From Psychrobacillus vulpis (GTDB lineage: Bacteria; Bacillota; Bacilli; Bacillales_A; Planococcaceae), in contig NZ_VDGI01000024.1 of NCBI RefSeq assembly GCF_006861825.1, positions 1-47,644 of the forward strand: DNA of 47,644 bases, given 5' to 3'. This document shows positions 14,797 through 22,683 of this stretch, one piece after another. Made by a program: the position numbers and the translations under genes. The notes under the pieces were generated by a model. The model was not told where the DNA came from and did not search any database. It saw nothing but the letters and a program-made list of their open reading frames with translations. Position 1 is the stretch's first letter. Every line of letters starts with the position of its first letter.

Positions 14797-16215
14797 TTAA
14801 AATAACGCGGATTGGGTAATATTCACTCGTTTATCTTGTTTTTCTATATCAAGTAAAAACAAACGAATCATCCACGCTTCTTCGATGTAACGAACTGATC
14901 CTATTTTTTCAAATGGTTCAGACATTGCGTCATATCTTTTTTCATTTAATACATAAAACGGTTCTTGAATTGGAAAGCGGAAGGCTCTTGTTGCGTTTTG
15001 AACATATAATCCTTTATTTGTTTCATTTAATGAATACCCTAAAACAGAAAGTAACGGTTCAGCCGGATACAATATTTTCCCATCTTTAAACAGTATCTTC
15101 ATATCTTCTTGCTGCAACTCATTAATATATACAGTTCTAGGATCTTCAAATAGTAAAGGAAAATAATCCTCTTTTGACTGAACATTAAAAGTAAAGAATG
15201 ATGTTTTTAAATCCAATGTTTTGGATAACAGTTCGTCCATTTTTTCTGCATTCAATTGTTTATTTTTAGTTATAGCGGTTTTCCATTCCTCTAGTTGCTT
15301 GGATGTAAAATAGTTATTGAGAGTCTCATACATCCAAATAGCTTTTTCAGACCCAATTGGTTGATTGAGCAAATAACTACTAATCACTTCCGCTAATAAC
15401 GATTCATTTGAATCTAGTCCGTATGTAGATTGTACATTATTTACGATTAACTCACGCTGAATGGCAGCAATGTTCTCATCATTAAAGAAAACAATGCGAG
15501 ATGTATTCGTAATATGATTATTTTCCGACAAGAAAACTGCTACATGCTCACTGTTGGGTAAATGTAATTGGTTTAATTTGCTTAAAAGTTCTTTTGATAC
15601 TTCCTTTTTCGAATAAAAAGTAAAATAATCATCTTCATACATAACAGGTATAACTTCTTTTTGCCAGTATAGTTCTGTTATATTACCTGGACCATATGCG
15701 AGCGTATAATCGATTAGATCTAATGATGTGTTTCCAATTATAGGCAGGCCACTAACCCACATTCCGCCTCTTTTTAGTTCATCCGTAATATGAAGAGTCG
15801 TGTATGAAACTCCACCTTTTTCAAGATTTGCAAAAATACCGGATAATATCTTTCCATCTTGAATCCCCTCTAATAAGGGTATTTCGTAAGAGATACTTTG
15901 GTTAGAAGCATCCCCTTCTTTGAACGTATTTAAATCTTCTGATAATCGGCTACAAGTGTCACCTTGACTTAAGTTACAACTTCTATTCTCACTTGAAATT
16001 GGCCAAGAAACATTCAATTCCTCATTTGGAATATTTTTAAAATGTTGCTTAACGATCATTCTATCTTTTTTCAATTTTACTTCAATATCTTGTTCGTAAA
16101 AAAAGGACTTGCCCTCCTCCTCTAAGCTCGAGGAATAGACGTGATACTGAAATAGTAGAAGTACACTATTTACAACAATGAGTATCATGGATAAAAAACT
16201 TACAACAATTTTCAT
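14797..16215 (-). CDS. Unrecognised membrane-anchored extracytoplasmic protein
   Basis: A 472-aa protein I cannot assign. One N-terminal hydrophobic segment (residues about 3-22) would anchor or export it, and the rest looks extracytoplasmic. Two nearby cysteines, SCNLSQGDTC (about 79-88), could form a disulfide. The C-terminal part (about 370-460: KILYPAEPLLSVLGYSL ... RYIEEAWMIRL) resembles the copper-amine-oxidase-N-type substrate/stalk repeats of Bacillota surface proteins, but this is only a pattern impression. The ATG at 16215 has GGAGGAC eight bases upstream. It lies 16 bases before rsmD, so it could be co-transcribed with rsmD-coaD. Confidence 0.6.
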   Translation of the reverse strand: MKIVVSFLSMILIVVNSVLLLFQYHVYSSSLEEEGKSFFYEQDIEVKLKKDRMIVKQHFKNIPNEELNVSWPISSENRSCNLSQGDTCSRLSEDLNTFKEGDASNQSISYEIPLLEGIQDGKILSGIFANLEKGGVSYTTLHITDELKRGGMWVSGLPIIGNTSLDLIDYTLAYGPGNITELYWQKEVIPVMYEDDYFTFYSKKEVSKELLSKLNQLHLPNSEHVAVFLSENNHITNTSRIVFFNDENIAAIQRELIVNNVQSTYGLDSNESLLAEVISSYLLNQPIGSEKAIWMYETLNNYFTSKQLEEWKTAITKNKQLNAEKMDELLSKTLDLKTSFFTFNVQSKEDYFPLLFEDPRTVYINELQQEDMKILFKDGKILYPAEPLLSVLGYSLNETNKGLYVQNATRAFRFPIQEPFYVLNEKRYDAMSEPFEKIGSVRYIEEAWMIRLFLLDIEKQDKRVNITQSALF

Positions 16216-16267
16216 AGAATTGTCCTCCAACAAAGTGGTAAGATGAATTGGAAAGGAAGTGTTTTCA

Positions 16268-18327: not shown

Positions 18328-18777
18328 TTATGCAGAACAGGAGCAAGAGCCACCTGATCCACAGCCACTTCCACAGTTGGAACCGCTTGATGAAAAAAAT
18401 GGATTGCTCACTGGCACTTTGACACCTTCTGAAACGGATTTACCAATAATTAGACTAATCTCATCTAATAAATCTTGCAACTCGTTTTCAGCAACTTTCA
18501 AAGTTGCTATTACATCTACCATATCCAGATTTCTTTTAGTTACTCGAATATCCTTCATGACAGTTGAGTAATCTGGATGGTATTTTCCGAATCGTTGAAC
18601 CTCTTCGTATTGATCTTTTAGTTTGGTGAAATGATTTATCTCACGAACTAGATTCGAATTTGTATATACAGCACGATGTGCATTTAAGTATTGATAAAAT
18701 TGTTCAGAGGTTAGAACCATATTACATAGAATATCTGACTGGTCCATTATTGTGGCCCATTCGTTGGTCATTATCAT
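18328..18777 (-). CDS. ylbF: YlbF/RicF family RNase Y-associated regulator
   Basis: Partner of YmcA and YaaT in the Ric complex that modulates RNase Y mRNA processing and affects competence, sporulation and biofilm formation in B. subtilis. The 149 aa equal the B. subtilis length. Helical YlbF/YmcA fold (about 5-120), then a Gly-Ser-Cys tail (SNCGSGCGSGGSCSCSA) whose cysteines fit the reported Fe-S ligands. The ATG at 18777 has GGAGGT seven bases upstream; the longer frame includes the promoter region. It is divergent from the thioesterase gene. Confidence 0.9.
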   Translation of the reverse strand: MIMTNEWATIMDQSDILCNMVLTSEQFYQYLNAHRAVYTNSNLVREINHFTKLKDQYEEVQRFGKYHPDYSTVMKDIRVTKRNLDMVDVIATLKVAENELQDLLDEISLIIGKSVSEGVKVPVSNPFFSSSGSNCGSGCGSGGSCSCSA

Positions 18778-18859
18778 ATTGTATACCTCCACTCTTTCAT
18801 CATAACAGAAAACTAGAAACAATTGCTAAACTATTAACTTGTTGTTAGGAGTAAAAATA

Positions 18860-19357
18860 ATGAATGAATTACAATCTTTGATAAATCAAGTAACAGAAAA
18901 TGCTTCCGAAGTTGAAATTGGTATACTAACGGATTTCTTAAAAGGGTTACGTAATAAACAACAAAAAGAAGCTCCTACATATTTAAACGCAGTTTTTCAT
19001 ATGGACACACAGTTTGAAAATGAATCTTGTATCGTTACACTACCTGTAACTCCACTTACTCATAATAGCTTTGATATGCCTCATGGCGGTATCATTACTA
19101 CACTAGCAGATAATGCGATGGGTTTTCTTGTAAACAAAGATTTGCTACCTGAAGGGAAAGGTGCTGTAACATCCAATATAACTATTCATTTTGTGAAAGC
19201 AGCAACCGAGAAAACATTAATTGCTACTGCTTCCTATTTACATAGAGGTCGTCAAACATTAGTTTTAGAATGTACAGTAACGCAACCAAATGGCAAAAGA
19301 ATTGCTTATGCTACTGGATCTTTTTTTGTCATTAATCCATCTAACTCTTCAAAATAA
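18860..19357 (+). CDS. PaaI-type hot-dog fold thioesterase
   Basis: A 165-aa acyl-CoA thioesterase-like protein. The conserved loop HNSFDMPHGGIITTLADNAMGF (about 62-83) holds the HGG motif and catalytic acidic residue of the PaaI/YbaW group. The ITIHFVKAATEKTLIATA strand region follows. Substrate unknown. The ATG at 18860 has AGGAG upstream. Its last 52 bases overlap the 3' end of the convergent murE-like gene. Confidence 0.85.
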   Translation: MNELQSLINQVTENASEVEIGILTDFLKGLRNKQQKEAPTYLNAVFHMDTQFENESCIVTLPVTPLTHNSFDMPHGGIITTLADNAMGFLVNKDLLPEGKGAVTSNITIHFVKAATEKTLIATASYLHRGRQTLVLECTVTQPNGKRIAYATGSFFVINPSNSSK

Positions 19358-20766
19358 TTCCTGATTACTTCATGGTCAGAGAAAGGGACAACAGAATCTT
19401 CTATAATTTGTTCTTGCTCATGTCCCTTTCCTGCTATTAATACGATATCTCCTTTTTTTGCAATACTTAAAGCTAAAATAATTGCTTGTTTGCGGTCCTT
19501 TTGAATTATTACTTTTCCTTTATCCGCCCCACACATAATATCATTGATAATATCATCAGGATGTTCATTTCTCGGATTATCGTTTGTAATAATAGCTTTT
19601 GTTGAAAATTTAGTAGCTACTTCCCCCATCCACTTTCTTTTTTGTTTATCTCGATTTCCTCCGCATCCAAAAACAACAAATACGTTCTGTTTCGCGTAAG
19701 CAGAAATTGCTGATAAACTAGCTTCTAAAGCATCAGGGGTATGTGCGTAGTCAACTAATACCTCAATCCCCTCTTTATTATTAATGCGTTCTAATCGCCC
19801 TTTAGGAAGTTTTACTGTTCTAATTTCACGAAGTGGTATTCGCAAAGCAACTAACACTGCAATTGCTGCAGCTAGGTTCATCCCATTATAATAACCACTA
19901 TTAGTCATTTCTACTTGCAGTTCTTCATTGCTTATACGAAATCTATATTTTACATTCTCATTTGTATAGTCTATATTTTGATATACTACTTCATTCTTTT
20001 TGTTTTCTCCAAATCGAGTTACTGGTATATGAGCTCTATTGCCTACTGACTTACACCAAGAATCATCATCATTAACAACTAGCTTCTTGGATTGTAAAAC
20101 AAGCAATTCTTTTGATTTCTTATATGGGACCATTCCACCATGAAATTCAATATGGTCTTTTCCGATATTCAGAAATACACCAACATCTATAGGATAGTTA
20201 CTTAATCTTTGATCTAACAATCCTTGAGATGATGCTTCCAGTATGATAAACTCCACATTTTGTTCGTAACAATATTTTACAACTTGTATAAAATCATAAA
20301 ATGGTAATGTTGTATTGCTTCGTAAACATAGTTCTATTTTTTGTCCATTAACAAATACACCTAATGTTCCTATTACACATACTGATTTACTTTGTTGCAT
20401 TAATAGCTGTCCAATAAATGACGCAACTGTTGTTTTTCCGTTCGTCCCTGTTATTCCGATTGTTTTCATTTTCTTTCCGTATAGCTCATATGAAATAGTT
20501 GATATTCTTTGAATAAAACAGTTCATTTCTATTGGAATAATTATTTGGGGAACACTACAGTCGTGAATATAAACTTCTGTCAAGACGGCAATAGCCCCCC
20601 TTTGAATTGCTTCTTCTATATATGTTCGATCATTTGTTTGTGAAACAAATACATCTCCTTCCTTAATTTGTTTAGAATGATCAATACATCTGTTTATTTT
20701 TACACACGCTAAGTTGCCAATAATCTGATACTGCAATCCTTCTAATAATTCTTTTAAAGGATAAAT
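19306..20766 (-). CDS. MurE-type UDP-MurNAc-tripeptide ligase, DAP signature, outside the dcw cluster
   Basis: Predicted ATP-dependent ligase adding the third amino acid to UDP-MurNAc-L-Ala-D-Glu in the cytoplasm. About 486 aa from a proposed ATT start (B. subtilis MurE is about 494). Seen: ATP loop GITGTNGKTT (about 103-112), HIEFHGGMVPYKKSKELL with the carbamylatable Lys, VDYAHTPDALEASL, CGGNRDKQKR, the amino-acid selector DNPRNEHP and AGKGHEQEQI. DNPR is the meso-DAP signature, whereas Lys-adding MurE carries DNP(A/N). Domain 1 is divergent and lacks the usual G...DGH segment, as in a specialised paralogue. The frame has no ATG, GTG or TTG near the homologous N-terminus (IYPLKELLEGL); ATT at 20766 or 20769 follows AGGGAG. 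A distant in-frame TTG at 20928 would overlap the aspartokinase gene by 54 bases. Catalytic competence looks intact; the sporulation role is inferred. Confidence 0.82.
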   Translation of the reverse strand: MYPLKELLEGLQYQIIGNLACVKINRCIDHSKQIKEGDVFVSQTNDRTYIEEAIQRGAIAVLTEVYIHDCSVPQIIIPIEMNCFIQRISTISYELYGKKMKTIGITGTNGKTTVASFIGQLLMQQSKSVCVIGTLGVFVNGQKIELCLRSNTTLPFYDFIQVVKYCYEQNVEFIILEASSQGLLDQRLSNYPIDVGVFLNIGKDHIEFHGGMVPYKKSKELLVLQSKKLVVNDDDSWCKSVGNRAHIPVTRFGENKKNEVVYQNIDYTNENVKYRFRISNEELQVEMTNSGYYNGMNLAAAIAVLVALRIPLREIRTVKLPKGRLERINNKEGIEVLVDYAHTPDALEASLSAISAYAKQNVFVVFGCGGNRDKQKRKWMGEVATKFSTKAIITNDNPRNEHPDDIINDIMCGADKGKVIIQKDRKQAIILALSIAKKGDIVLIAGKGHEQEQIIEDSVVPFSDHEVIRNYFEELDGLMTKKDPVA

Positions 20767-20782
20767 AATTATCCACTCCCTA

Positions 20783-20810
20783 CACCATTCTTGTATTCCC
20801 GCATAAAGTA
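20783..20810 (+). promoter_or_regulatory. Sigma-K-like promoter for the aspartokinase gene
   Basis: CATAAAGTA (20802-20810) matches the sigma-K -10 pattern CATAnnnTA exactly. AC dinucleotides lie 16 (20784-20785) and 18 (20782-20783) bases upstream; the consensus spacing is 16-17. It would place transcription about 55 bases before the start codon. It is predicted by eye. Confidence 0.4.
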
Positions 20811-20824
20811 AAATGAATTCCTTG

Positions 20825-20853
20825 TATCGTATGAACGGAGTGTTTGAAATGTC
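20825..20853 (-). promoter_or_regulatory. Sigma-K/sigma-E-like promoter for the murE-like gene
   Basis: Minus-strand CATACGATA (20833-20825) matches the sigma-K -10 CATAnnnTA, with AC 17 bases upstream (20852-20851). CATACGAT is also 7/8 to the sigma-E -10 CATACAnT, with TGACATT (5/7 to KMATATT) 14 bases upstream. It overlaps and faces the plus-strand promoter. Confidence 0.45.
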
Positions 20854-20874
20854 ACGAGTAAAGTGGATGAAGTT

Positions 20875-21606
20875 ATGATTGTGCAAAAGTATGGTGGTAT
20901 TGCTATGCAGGATCGTCAAAGTAGACAATTAGTTATTGCACGAATCCAAAAAGCGCTCATAAACCACCAAAAAGTGCTTGTTGTTGTATCTGCCATGGGA
21001 AGAAAAGGTCAATACTACTCAACTGATAGTCTTCTAGATCTAATACCTAGATCTAACGATAGTGTTGAATCAGATTTACTTTCTGCATGTGGTGAGTTAA
21101 TCTCTGCCTCTGTATTATGCGCAGAGCTTAAAAAGGAAGGTGTTCCTGCTACTCTCTTGTATGGGAAAAGCGCAGGAATAATAACAAATGAAGCATATGG
21201 AAATGCGGATATATTAAAAGTGGATACAAATAAATTATTAGCAGTATTCCATGAATTCCCGTGCATAATAGTGCCCGGATTTCAAGGTATTTCTGAACAT
21301 ACAAACACATTTACTACATTAGGTAGAGGTGGAAGTGATCTAACTGCTGTAGTATATGGACATCATTTAAATGCAGAAGTCGTGGAATTTTATAAAAATG
21401 TTCCAGGAGTGATGACTTCCGATCCTTTTCAAAATAAATCCGTCCAATTAATCACTACTATGTCTTACGAAGAGTTACAAAAAATAATTATTGAACCGGT
21501 TGAAATCATACAAAAAAAAGCAGCCAAATTTGCTGCTCTTCACAAAGTACCATTGCATATCCGTTCTCTATATGAAGAAAGAGATGGAACATTTGTATTT
21601 CATTAA
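20875..21606 (+). CDS. Aspartokinase catalytic domain without ACT domains
   Basis: Amino-acid-kinase-fold protein of 243 aa, predicted to phosphorylate aspartate at the head of the DAP/Lys/dipicolinate pathway. Seen: N-terminal KYGG (residues 5-8), VVVSAMGR (about 38-45), LLSACGELISASVL (about 68-81), GFQGI ... TLGRGGSDLTAVVYG (about 140-165) and EFYKNVPGVMTSDP (about 173-186). The usual KFGGTS is KYGGIA here, losing the Thr/Ser pair, so the substrate may differ. The protein stops where ACT domains begin in LysC/DapG, so allosteric lysine or DAP control is not expected. The ATG at 20875 is weakly supported by AGTGGA. It is divergent from murE, and its stop abuts the convergent ylbC stop. Confidence 0.78.
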   Translation: MIVQKYGGIAMQDRQSRQLVIARIQKALINHQKVLVVVSAMGRKGQYYSTDSLLDLIPRSNDSVESDLLSACGELISASVLCAELKKEGVPATLLYGKSAGIITNEAYGNADILKVDTNKLLAVFHEFPCIIVPGFQGISEHTNTFTTLGRGGSDLTAVVYGHHLNAEVVEFYKNVPGVMTSDPFQNKSVQLITTMSYEELQKIIIEPVEIIQKKAAKFAALHKVPLHIRSLYEERDGTFVFH

Positions 21607-22683
21607 TTATTGTTTATCTTCTTTTGCAATTGGTCTTTCAATAAAATTTTGAGTGTAATAATTACCATATACTCCTACTCCCGTATGTGTATACCATTTC
21701 CCTAAAATTGTGTCTCTATGGCCTTTTGAATTTAACCACCCATTCACGGCTTCGCCAGCATCAAAATAAAAAGCTGCTGAATTTCCTCCTGCACGTGTAA
21801 AATCAATTGAAGAGTGCCTTAATGTGTCACTAAATTTAGGGACTTCAAATGACTCATTGATCACTACATTGTTTTTGGCCATTTCCTCACTATGGGTTCT
21901 TGCAATATTTTGCAACTCCAATTCAGACTCTAGAACCTTTAATCCATGCCTCAACCTATATACATTCGTTATTTCAAATATTTGACGCTCATTTGCACGA
22001 TCAACTGAAACTTGTAAAGAAGAAGACGGTGTTGTAGTTTCTATCATCTTGCCATTGTACAAAATATCATATGGTTTTTGTAATAATAAAGTTTTAGGAT
22101 CTGAAAACCGAACTGCTTCTAATTCATTATCTTGAGAATCAATGTATAGTATTGCTAATAAATCATCAAACTGAACTAATATTCGATTATTTATATCTTT
22201 ATCATTTAAAGAAAAAGTATAGACATTCGAGTCAATAGATATAGTTATTTCCGGCTGTACTATTGTAAATCTGTAAATATCTTCTAATGATTGTCCAATT
22301 TTATATGGTGTTACATCCACTTTGTTCCCAACTACAAAAGCTTGTGTAACTGTATCTTCTGATATTCCTATTAATTGATAGTTCGAAAAAGAGTTATTAT
22401 AAACCCACCAATCATATCCAAATACAGTGGGTTCAATTCGATTTGGCTTCCCTAACAATTTGGTTACTTCTTGTGACGATTTGCCAATCAACACCGAAAT
22501 ACCTTTGTTAGGTCTTGAAAAAATACTGTTTGTTTCTACTATCTCTGTTGATTCTTGAGGAATAACCTGTCCGGAGTTATTCGACCCAGTAATAAGTTCA
22601 TTTTCCTGTACTGGATTATCAAAATATATAAAAACTACTAGTACTATAGCAATAGCAATAAGTATTCTAAATAGATTCTTCAT
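21607..22683 (-). CDS. ylbC: YlbC-like protein with CAP (SCP) domain
   Basis: A 358-aa exported or membrane-anchored protein. An N-terminal hydrophobic segment (about 4-21) is followed by a CAP-associated domain (about 60-215, starting at IGKSSQEVTKLLGKP) and a C-terminal CAP/SCP domain (about 235-345: ITNVYRLRHGLKVLE ... ARTHSEEMAKNN ... GWLNSKGHRDTIL ... HTGVGVYGNYYTQNF). The His/Glu pair of CAP domains is present. Function unknown; B. subtilis YlbC has the same layout and neighbourhood. The ATG at 22683 has AAGGAG nine bases upstream. Confidence 0.86.
   Translation of the reverse strand: MKNLFRILIAIAIVLVVFIYFDNPVQENELITGSNNSGQVIPQESTEIVETNSIFSRPNKGISVLIGKSSQEVTKLLGKPNRIEPTVFGYDWWVYNNSFSNYQLIGISEDTVTQAFVVGNKVDVTPYKIGQSLEDIYRFTIVQPEITISIDSNVYTFSLNDKDINNRILVQFDDLLAILYIDSQDNELEAVRFSDPKTLLLQKPYDILYNGKMIETTTPSSSLQVSVDRANERQIFEITNVYRLRHGLKVLESELELQNIARTHSEEMAKNNVVINESFEVPKFSDTLRHSSIDFTRAGGNSAAFYFDAGEAVNGWLNSKGHRDTILGKWYTHTGVGVYGNYYTQNFIERPIAKEDKQ

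Follow-up and report, generated by a model that had tools for sequence, protein, structure and literature searches.

A probable sporulation-specific meso-diaminopimelate-adding MurE ligase, head-to-head with an aspartokinase lacking ACT domains, in Psychrobacillus and other spore-forming Planococcaceae

A 47,644-nucleotide stretch of Psychrobacillus vulpis contig NZ_VDGI01000024.1 (assembly GCF_006861825.1, positions 1 to 47,644), here called the window, carries two genes in head-to-head arrangement, one for a MurE-family ligase and one for an aspartokinase. From comparisons across the family Planococcaceae, the pair very probably encodes a sporulation-specific ligase that adds meso-diaminopimelate (DAP) in a spore former with a lysine- or ornithine-type vegetative wall, together with an ACT-less, DapG-like aspartokinase. 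The ligase follows sporulation genome by genome, its gene is preceded by a mother-cell-type promoter, and it decays along with a sporulation gene in a sister genus. A gene is thus proposed, family-wide, for a developmental switch in peptidoglycan chemistry. A literature search, which covered few subscription journals, found no description of a sporulation-specific murE gene, and we do not claim that none is in print.

Window-type MurE follows sporulation in the Planococcaceae

We surveyed 151 genomes of the family, using the spoIVA model TIGR02836 as the sporulation marker. Two named strains tie the window's genus to Psychrobacillus: over about 4.46 kb, Bacillus sp. FJAT-22090 DE0292 is 100% identical to L028 (genome G041) and Psychrobacillus sp. 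BL-248-WT-3 to L032 (genome G109). Window-type MurE was present in all 113 genomes of 12 spore-forming genera, assigned by a match at E 1e-76 or better in 110 of them and by locus in the other three (G099, matching at 2.2e-70, and G084 and G120, with split matches). The spoIVA score exceeded the cut-off in 112 of these genomes, the remaining one (G098) holding a piece at a contig end. The 34 spoIVA-negative genomes, from 6 genera, matched the window protein at E 5e-71 to 4e-60, a comparison based on the best MurE match per genome. This best MurE was of the vegetative type in all 27 genomes examined among the 34, 7 of them placed by the tree in the vegetative clade and 20 by BLAST against both types with the motif DDPR. 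Window-type MurE therefore tracks sporulation genome by genome, and this, with the promoter described below, supports the sporulation DAP-adding ligase that an earlier note, made from the sequence of the window alone, had proposed. Additional MurE-like genes of different types are present in two spoIVA-negative genomes (G012 and G031).

The four genomes of the sister genus g2 capture the locus in decay. In three of them (G001, G038, and G053) spoIVA is broken, and it is full length in G020. In G001, murE is reduced to 114 codons from its 3' end and the aspartokinase gene has left no frame of at least 70 codons, and the G053 locus holds remnants of 116 and 70 aa; in both genomes the murE remnants lie between intact flanking genes. 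For G038, a sequence search at E 1e-12, without inspection of the locus, returned no murE fragment. The sampled spore formers gave only weak, diverged matches to dpaA (4e-10 to 6e-25); those of six spoIVA-negative genomes, and likewise those of G001, G038, and G053, were close to background. The dpaA-like genes of the family's spore formers (L168-L181, of which L171 lies on contig C23 of the window genome at 224053-224628) are frames of 254-316 aa that score far under the TIGR02853 cut-off.

Mother-cell-type promoters between the two genes

The control region between the start codons of murE and the aspartokinase gene spans about 110 bp. On the minus strand, a sigma-K-like, putative mother-cell promoter of murE, AC-N17-CATACGATA, lies at 20825..20852 (AC at 20852-20851, −10 box at 20833-20825), and on the plus strand a sigma-K-like element of the aspartokinase gene, AC-N16-CATAAAGTA, occupies 20784..20810. 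These opposed elements stand side by side over 20784-20852, each inside the leader of the other gene, and the aspartokinase element matches the sigma-K consensus exactly in 19 of 19 Psychrobacillus loci.

This consensus, AC-N16/17-CATANNNTA, was found upstream of murE in 42 of 64 loci, its relaxed form, [AT]C-N16/17-CATANNNT[AG], in 56 of 64 (1.55 expected from dinucleotide shuffles), and the −10 box by itself in all 64 (7.7 expected from such shuffles), although the 64 loci stem from 61 related genomes and the counts are thus not independent events, which tempers the case. The two-box form was absent from the control genes, namely 21 genes of a second MurE type (C75 type, see below) and 9 vegetative murE genes, in which the −10 box alone occurred once and not at all, respectively. 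The relaxed two-box form was also absent upstream of murE in g15, g18, and g2. Promoters of sigma-E and sigma-K share an identical −10 element and are told apart by a single −35 base, which is T in sigma-E promoters and C in those of sigma-K, as stated in an excerpt of PMC517825. A C-type −35 site was present upstream of murE in 58 of 64 loci, a count that accepts any site and covers a longer upstream stretch than the 56 of 64 above, which points to sigma-K. By comparison, the upstream regions of spoIVA, a sigma-E gene, contained the −10 box in 14 of 15 genomes, and at the box nearest the gene all 14 had T as the −35 base, with no instance of C.

A divergent, probably complete DNPR-type ligase

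The ligase gene was initially read as an open frame at 19306-20928 on the minus strand (540 aa). In 19 of 19 Psychrobacillus loci, from 17 genomes, the same ATT codon is found within this frame; six of these loci have an in-frame TGA three codons ahead of the ATT, which excludes any earlier start there. On these grounds the 540-aa frame appears too long, and the start is most likely this ATT (20764-20766), giving a 486-aa protein encoded at 19306..20766 (−). A Shine-Dalgarno-like sequence, AGGGAG (20776..20781, −), precedes the ATT codon by 9 nt; it reads AGGGAG in 18 Psychrobacillus loci and AGGAAG in L031, and the spacing is 9 nt in 18 loci and 10 nt in L036.

The protein passed both the NCBIfam DAP ligase model NF001126 (416.9 bits, cut-off 373) and TIGR01085 (401.4 bits, cut-off 257.3), and all motifs sought were found (GITGTNGKTT, GCGGNRDK, TNDNPRNE, and AGKGHE), with the meso-DAP-type selector DNPR inside TNDNPRNE. 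In an alignment of 17 rows (A1), T109-T115, H208, H212, Y218, K222, and G449-E453 were invariant, in line with the P-loop, carbamylated-lysine region, catalytic histidine, and GKGHE of MurE. Pfam recognised the middle and C-terminal Mur domains and gave no match for the N-terminal Mur_ligase domain (PF01225) at E 0.001, although the predicted structure is that of a complete MurE (pLDDT 88; best PDB match 1e8c, E. coli MurE, TM 0.84). The earlier note had described a DNPR-type MurE with intact ATP and GKGHE motifs and a divergent first domain, and both descriptions held up. The asparagine and arginine of DNPR touch the DAP carboxyl in the MurE of E. coli and M. tuberculosis, according to an excerpt of PMC3829189, and one DNPR MurE is described in an excerpt of PMC3681970 as specific for meso-DAP, using neither lysine nor ornithine.

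In a MurE tree of 67 rows, the spore type, the vegetative type, and the C75 type each formed a clade of their own (support 98/94, 100/100, and 100/100, respectively), and among the rows examined the selector was DN[PAS]R in the spore type versus DDPR in the vegetative type. Within the same genomes, identity between genera was 41-51% for the spore type versus 68-80% for the vegetative type (three genus pairs), and the spore type and DDPR type of a single genome shared 29-33% identity (three genomes). Acquisition by horizontal transfer into Psychrobacillus alone was considered and rejected, since one locus is shared by 12 genera and its proteins form one clade. An order-level search with the window MurE listed matches from the Planococcaceae only, and in a class-level search the 20 loci examined among the best matches from other families were DNPR MurEs at 34-37% identity.

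An aspartokinase reduced to its catalytic domain

The aspartokinase gene was first read as a frame at 20863-21606 on the plus strand. Its start is most likely the ATG at 20875, given that M1 is invariant in an alignment of homologues (A2), so that the gene would occupy 20875..21606 (+) and encode 243 aa. Profile match, alignment, and predicted structure agree on a DapG-like protein made of the catalytic domain only. PF00696 (AA_kinase) was the sole domain found (107.6 bits, cut-off 24.9), and the best of the NCBIfam aspartokinase models was the DapG model NF006068, matched over its catalytic half (positions 3-245 of 405) at 248.7 bits against a cut-off of 474; TIGR00656 reached 187.5 bits against 402.25. 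The protein stops after the catalytic domain and lacks the C-terminal ACT regulatory domains of monofunctional aspartate kinases. Its predicted structure (pLDDT 92) has the fold of aspartokinases, with 5yei as the best match (TM 0.90), and an alignment of 13 homologues shows no variation at K5, E74, R151, S154, and D155. The head-to-head aspartokinase without ACT domains that the earlier note had seen is thus borne out.

At E 1e-45, the aspartokinase was found in 57 of the 151 genomes, belonging to 6 of the 12 spore-forming genera; in all 57 it is adjacent to and divergent from MurE, and identity between genera is 42-49%. Conservation of the pair, raised as a check in the earlier note, holds for MurE in 113 of 113 spore formers and not for its partner, present in 57 of the 113. 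Because the six genera without the aspartokinase group together as a single sub-clade in the tree of spore-type MurE (support 100/99), a single loss is the simplest account, and the g2 remnants agree with it. A full-length DapG elsewhere in the family was considered as well and rejected, as none exceeded the cut-off in the 151 genomes, with a positive B. subtilis control.

Since the ACT domains are absent, we infer an enzyme free of feedback. A helper enzyme that feeds DAP and dipicolinate synthesis free of feedback is consistent with these data, and would agree with the entry enzyme that the earlier note had suggested, but we hold this reading with lower confidence, and its support is far less firm than that for MurE.

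Other MurE proteins and the vegetative wall

Nine Mur-ligase middle domains were detected in the genome, and besides the window protein one was MurE-like. This second MurE, which answers the earlier note's call for one, is a very divergent 532-aa protein on contig C75 (C75:135872-137467; L020 15873-17471). It reads TQKDVVSE at the position of DNPR and is missing GKGHE; it scores over the TIGR01085 cut-off (283.2 versus 257.3) and under that of NF001126 (306.5 versus 373). At E 1e-85, the C75 type was found in 17 of 17 Psychrobacillus genomes, 4 of 4 g2 genomes, and 0 of 130 others, with 82-90% identity to the C75 protein of the window genome in the other 16 Psychrobacillus genomes and 67-69% in g2, where it is intact while two genomes keep only remnants of the DAP type. 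Based on this distribution of MurE types across genomes, the C75 protein is the best candidate for the vegetative, ornithine-adding MurE of Psychrobacillus, a genus that reportedly includes species with ornithine in their walls (by the title of Abd El-Rahman 2002).

The earlier note had expected the housekeeping murE in the dcw cluster, an expectation rejected for this genome: the cluster on contig C27 reads mraZ-rsmH-ftsL-pbpB-spoVD-mraY-murD, with no murE, and the vegetative gene appears to be the solitary C75 gene. In the other genera sampled, vegetative MurE is encoded near prfC, a prfC homologue lying beside it or within 3 kb at 9 of 9 loci (two of them NCBIfam-confirmed) and near it at 19 of 20 further loci. 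This vegetative MurE had DDPR as its selector in all 13 of its tree rows, 12 of them distinct, and at all 20 further loci. Spore formers and non-spore formers alike have this prfC-linked DDPR MurE, the presumed vegetative paralogue in these genera.

Two further sets of Mur ligases were observed. A separate MurE-like clade (support 100/100) in g2 and g12 (L149, L150, L151, L152, L155, and L157) has GFRG[NKG]RD, with DDLN or DDRN replacing DNPR. On contig C11 of the window genome (C11:85651-90996; L012, L013, and L015), three MurF-like ligases stand in tandem; the first is a frame of 747 aa, extended at its N-terminus by a long additional part that resembles an ATP-grasp domain by eye.

Proposed function and alternatives

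In the pathway we propose, the vegetative wall would be built with a diamino acid other than DAP, which in Psychrobacillus would be ornithine; lysine takes this place in most of the family's other genera. During sporulation, the mother cell would transcribe murE, with sigma-K as the most likely sigma factor, and the MurE protein would divert UDP-MurNAc-L-Ala-D-Glu to the DAP tripeptide for the cortex. The aspartokinase, transcribed in the opposite direction from an overlapping control region, may supply aspartyl phosphate without the usual feedback for both DAP and dipicolinate. What the sequences show are the gene identities, the motifs, a conserved locus, co-occurrence with sporulation, decay in a sister genus, and promoter-like elements; we infer the substrate, compartment, timing, and cortex use of MurE, and the activity of the aspartokinase.

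Several observations weigh against this assignment. DNPR is supporting evidence and no proof of DAP use, because S. aureus MurE with the A409R exchange (DNPR) gained no DAP activity, as reported in an excerpt of PMC3829189. Some window-type orthologues read DNAR or DNSR in place of DNPR. The MurE of G099 matches the window protein no better than vegetative types do, and those of G084 and G120 match it only in split form, while seven spoIVA-negative genomes (G008, G034, G043, G058, G087, G088, and G097) lie outside the 27 of 34 whose MurE was typed. Within g2, G020 combines a full-length spoIVA with a MurE frame of 436 aa and an aspartokinase frame shortened to 223 aa, and its MurE is very diverged, on the longest end branch of the tree (3.57). 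Regarding the promoters, the any-site rule also returns a C-type site in 1 of 15 spoIVA upstream regions, at another site, and an AT-type site is also present in 1 of 64 murE upstream regions; the relaxed form precedes the aspartokinase gene in just 3 of 21 loci from other genera than Psychrobacillus. The sigma-K pattern was found within 200 bp upstream of none of 14 dpaA-like genes, and it is therefore no full detector of mother-cell genes. Finally, the aspartokinase was not found at E 1e-45 in 56 of the 113 spore-former genomes and must be dispensable, and the KFGGTS of the genome's LysC is K[FY]GG[IV]A in the window type (AA in one homologue).

One could instead suppose that the window MurE is the sole functional growth ligase, a housekeeping DAP enzyme moved from the dcw cluster, and that the C75 protein does something else. 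The murE-less dcw cluster fits such a move, as do the missing DNPR and GKGHE of the C75 protein and its score under the NF001126 cut-off. However, the C75 type passes TIGR01085, is strongly conserved, and stays intact in g2 despite the DAP-type remnants there (g2 also has the DDLN MurE-like genes), and in other genera spore formers and non-spore formers both retain a prfC-linked DDPR MurE. Together with the mother-cell-type promoter of murE and the ornithine reported for Psychrobacillus walls, this makes a moved growth enzyme very improbable in our view. A sporulation-specific MurE might also serve the germ-cell wall or wall recycling and not the cortex, as co-occurrence with spoIVA is by itself silent on which spore layer is served. 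Yet the murE promoter carries the sigma-K, mother-cell base, cortex precursors are made by the mother cell, and DAP is the diamino acid of the cortex in B. sphaericus, so we regard another destination as quite unlikely.

The partner gene leaves more room for doubt. The aspartokinase may be inactive alone, a regulatory relic, or a partner subunit of LysC, and not a feedback-free supplier. Its unusual KFGG[IV]A motif and its absence from half of the spore-former genomes would suit any of these, as would the missing ACT domains, which belong to the regulated oligomer in aspartokinases of known structure. On the other side stand the invariant K5, E74, R151, S154, and D155, the identity kept across genera in a constant head-to-head arrangement with MurE, and the confident aspartokinase-fold model, which make such a role the less probable one.

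Taking the sporulation-specific DAP ligase as the preferred reading, a broader history for the Planococcaceae can be outlined, which we favour on balance. The locus would represent an ancestral mother-cell precursor module for a DAP cortex, kept by every spore former examined and lost or decayed with sporulation. It would comprise a fast-diverging MurE of sigma-K type, in Psychrobacillus with a conserved AUU start, and a cut-down DapG-like aspartokinase that was probably lost once. In Psychrobacillus and g2, the vegetative MurE may have been replaced by a new, L-ornithine-adding type in which DNPR is abolished, such that a single cell would switch its wall chemistry by exchanging one ligase for the other. 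Why the cortex keeps DAP while the vegetative wall uses lysine or ornithine thereby becomes testable gene by gene, with spore formers, non-spore formers, and a genus with a decaying locus as natural controls, and the C75 type offers a MurE that is a candidate for adding ornithine and whose selector sequence is new.

Genes flanking the pair

In each of the 12 genera, window-type murE lies between a CAP-protein gene and ylbF, with rsmD and coaD further out where the fetched stretch reaches, and in some genomes (e.g. L092, L093, and L139) extra genes are inserted. In the window, the CAP-domain protein gene (YlbC-like; 21607..22683, −), a neighbour in nearly all loci examined and not seen in L167, follows the aspartokinase gene. 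The conserved flank on the murE side is a ylbF-like gene (18328..18822, −), and a hotdog thioesterase gene (18839..19357, +), found in some genera only, shares 52 bp with murE, the two genes overlapping at their 3' ends. A 478-aa protein without a Pfam match, encoded at 14797-16233, is patchy at the murE locus, being present in many spore formers and unseen in three g2 loci, L088, L096, and L131. A plasmid search of 85 records gave best matches all below 60% identity, the five best listed being at 32-33%.

Relation to known systems

The window MurE shares its fold, ATP motif, DNPR, and GKGHE with canonical meso-DAP MurE enzymes (E. coli 1e8c and the DNPR MurE of other Bacilli), and differs from them in lying outside dcw, in its diverged domain 1, in belonging to a separate, fast-diverging clade, and in its mother-cell-type promoter. 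It is likewise homologous to the L-lysine MurE of S. aureus (4c12/4c13) and to the prfC-linked DDPR MurE, whose selectors are DNPA and DDPR, respectively, versus DNPR here. The aspartokinase matches the catalytic half of DapG (B. subtilis aspartokinase I, NF006068), while the ACT half is missing. The closest parallel comes from the 1970s biochemistry of Bacillus (Lysinibacillus) sphaericus, which has a sporulation-induced meso-DAP-adding ligase, to our knowledge described only as an enzyme activity. As in that organism, a second, DAP-type tripeptide ligase would act beside a vegetative wall without DAP, with expression expected in the mother cell; unlike there, a specific gene is proposed here, in Psychrobacillus, whose vegetative wall is probably of the ornithine type.

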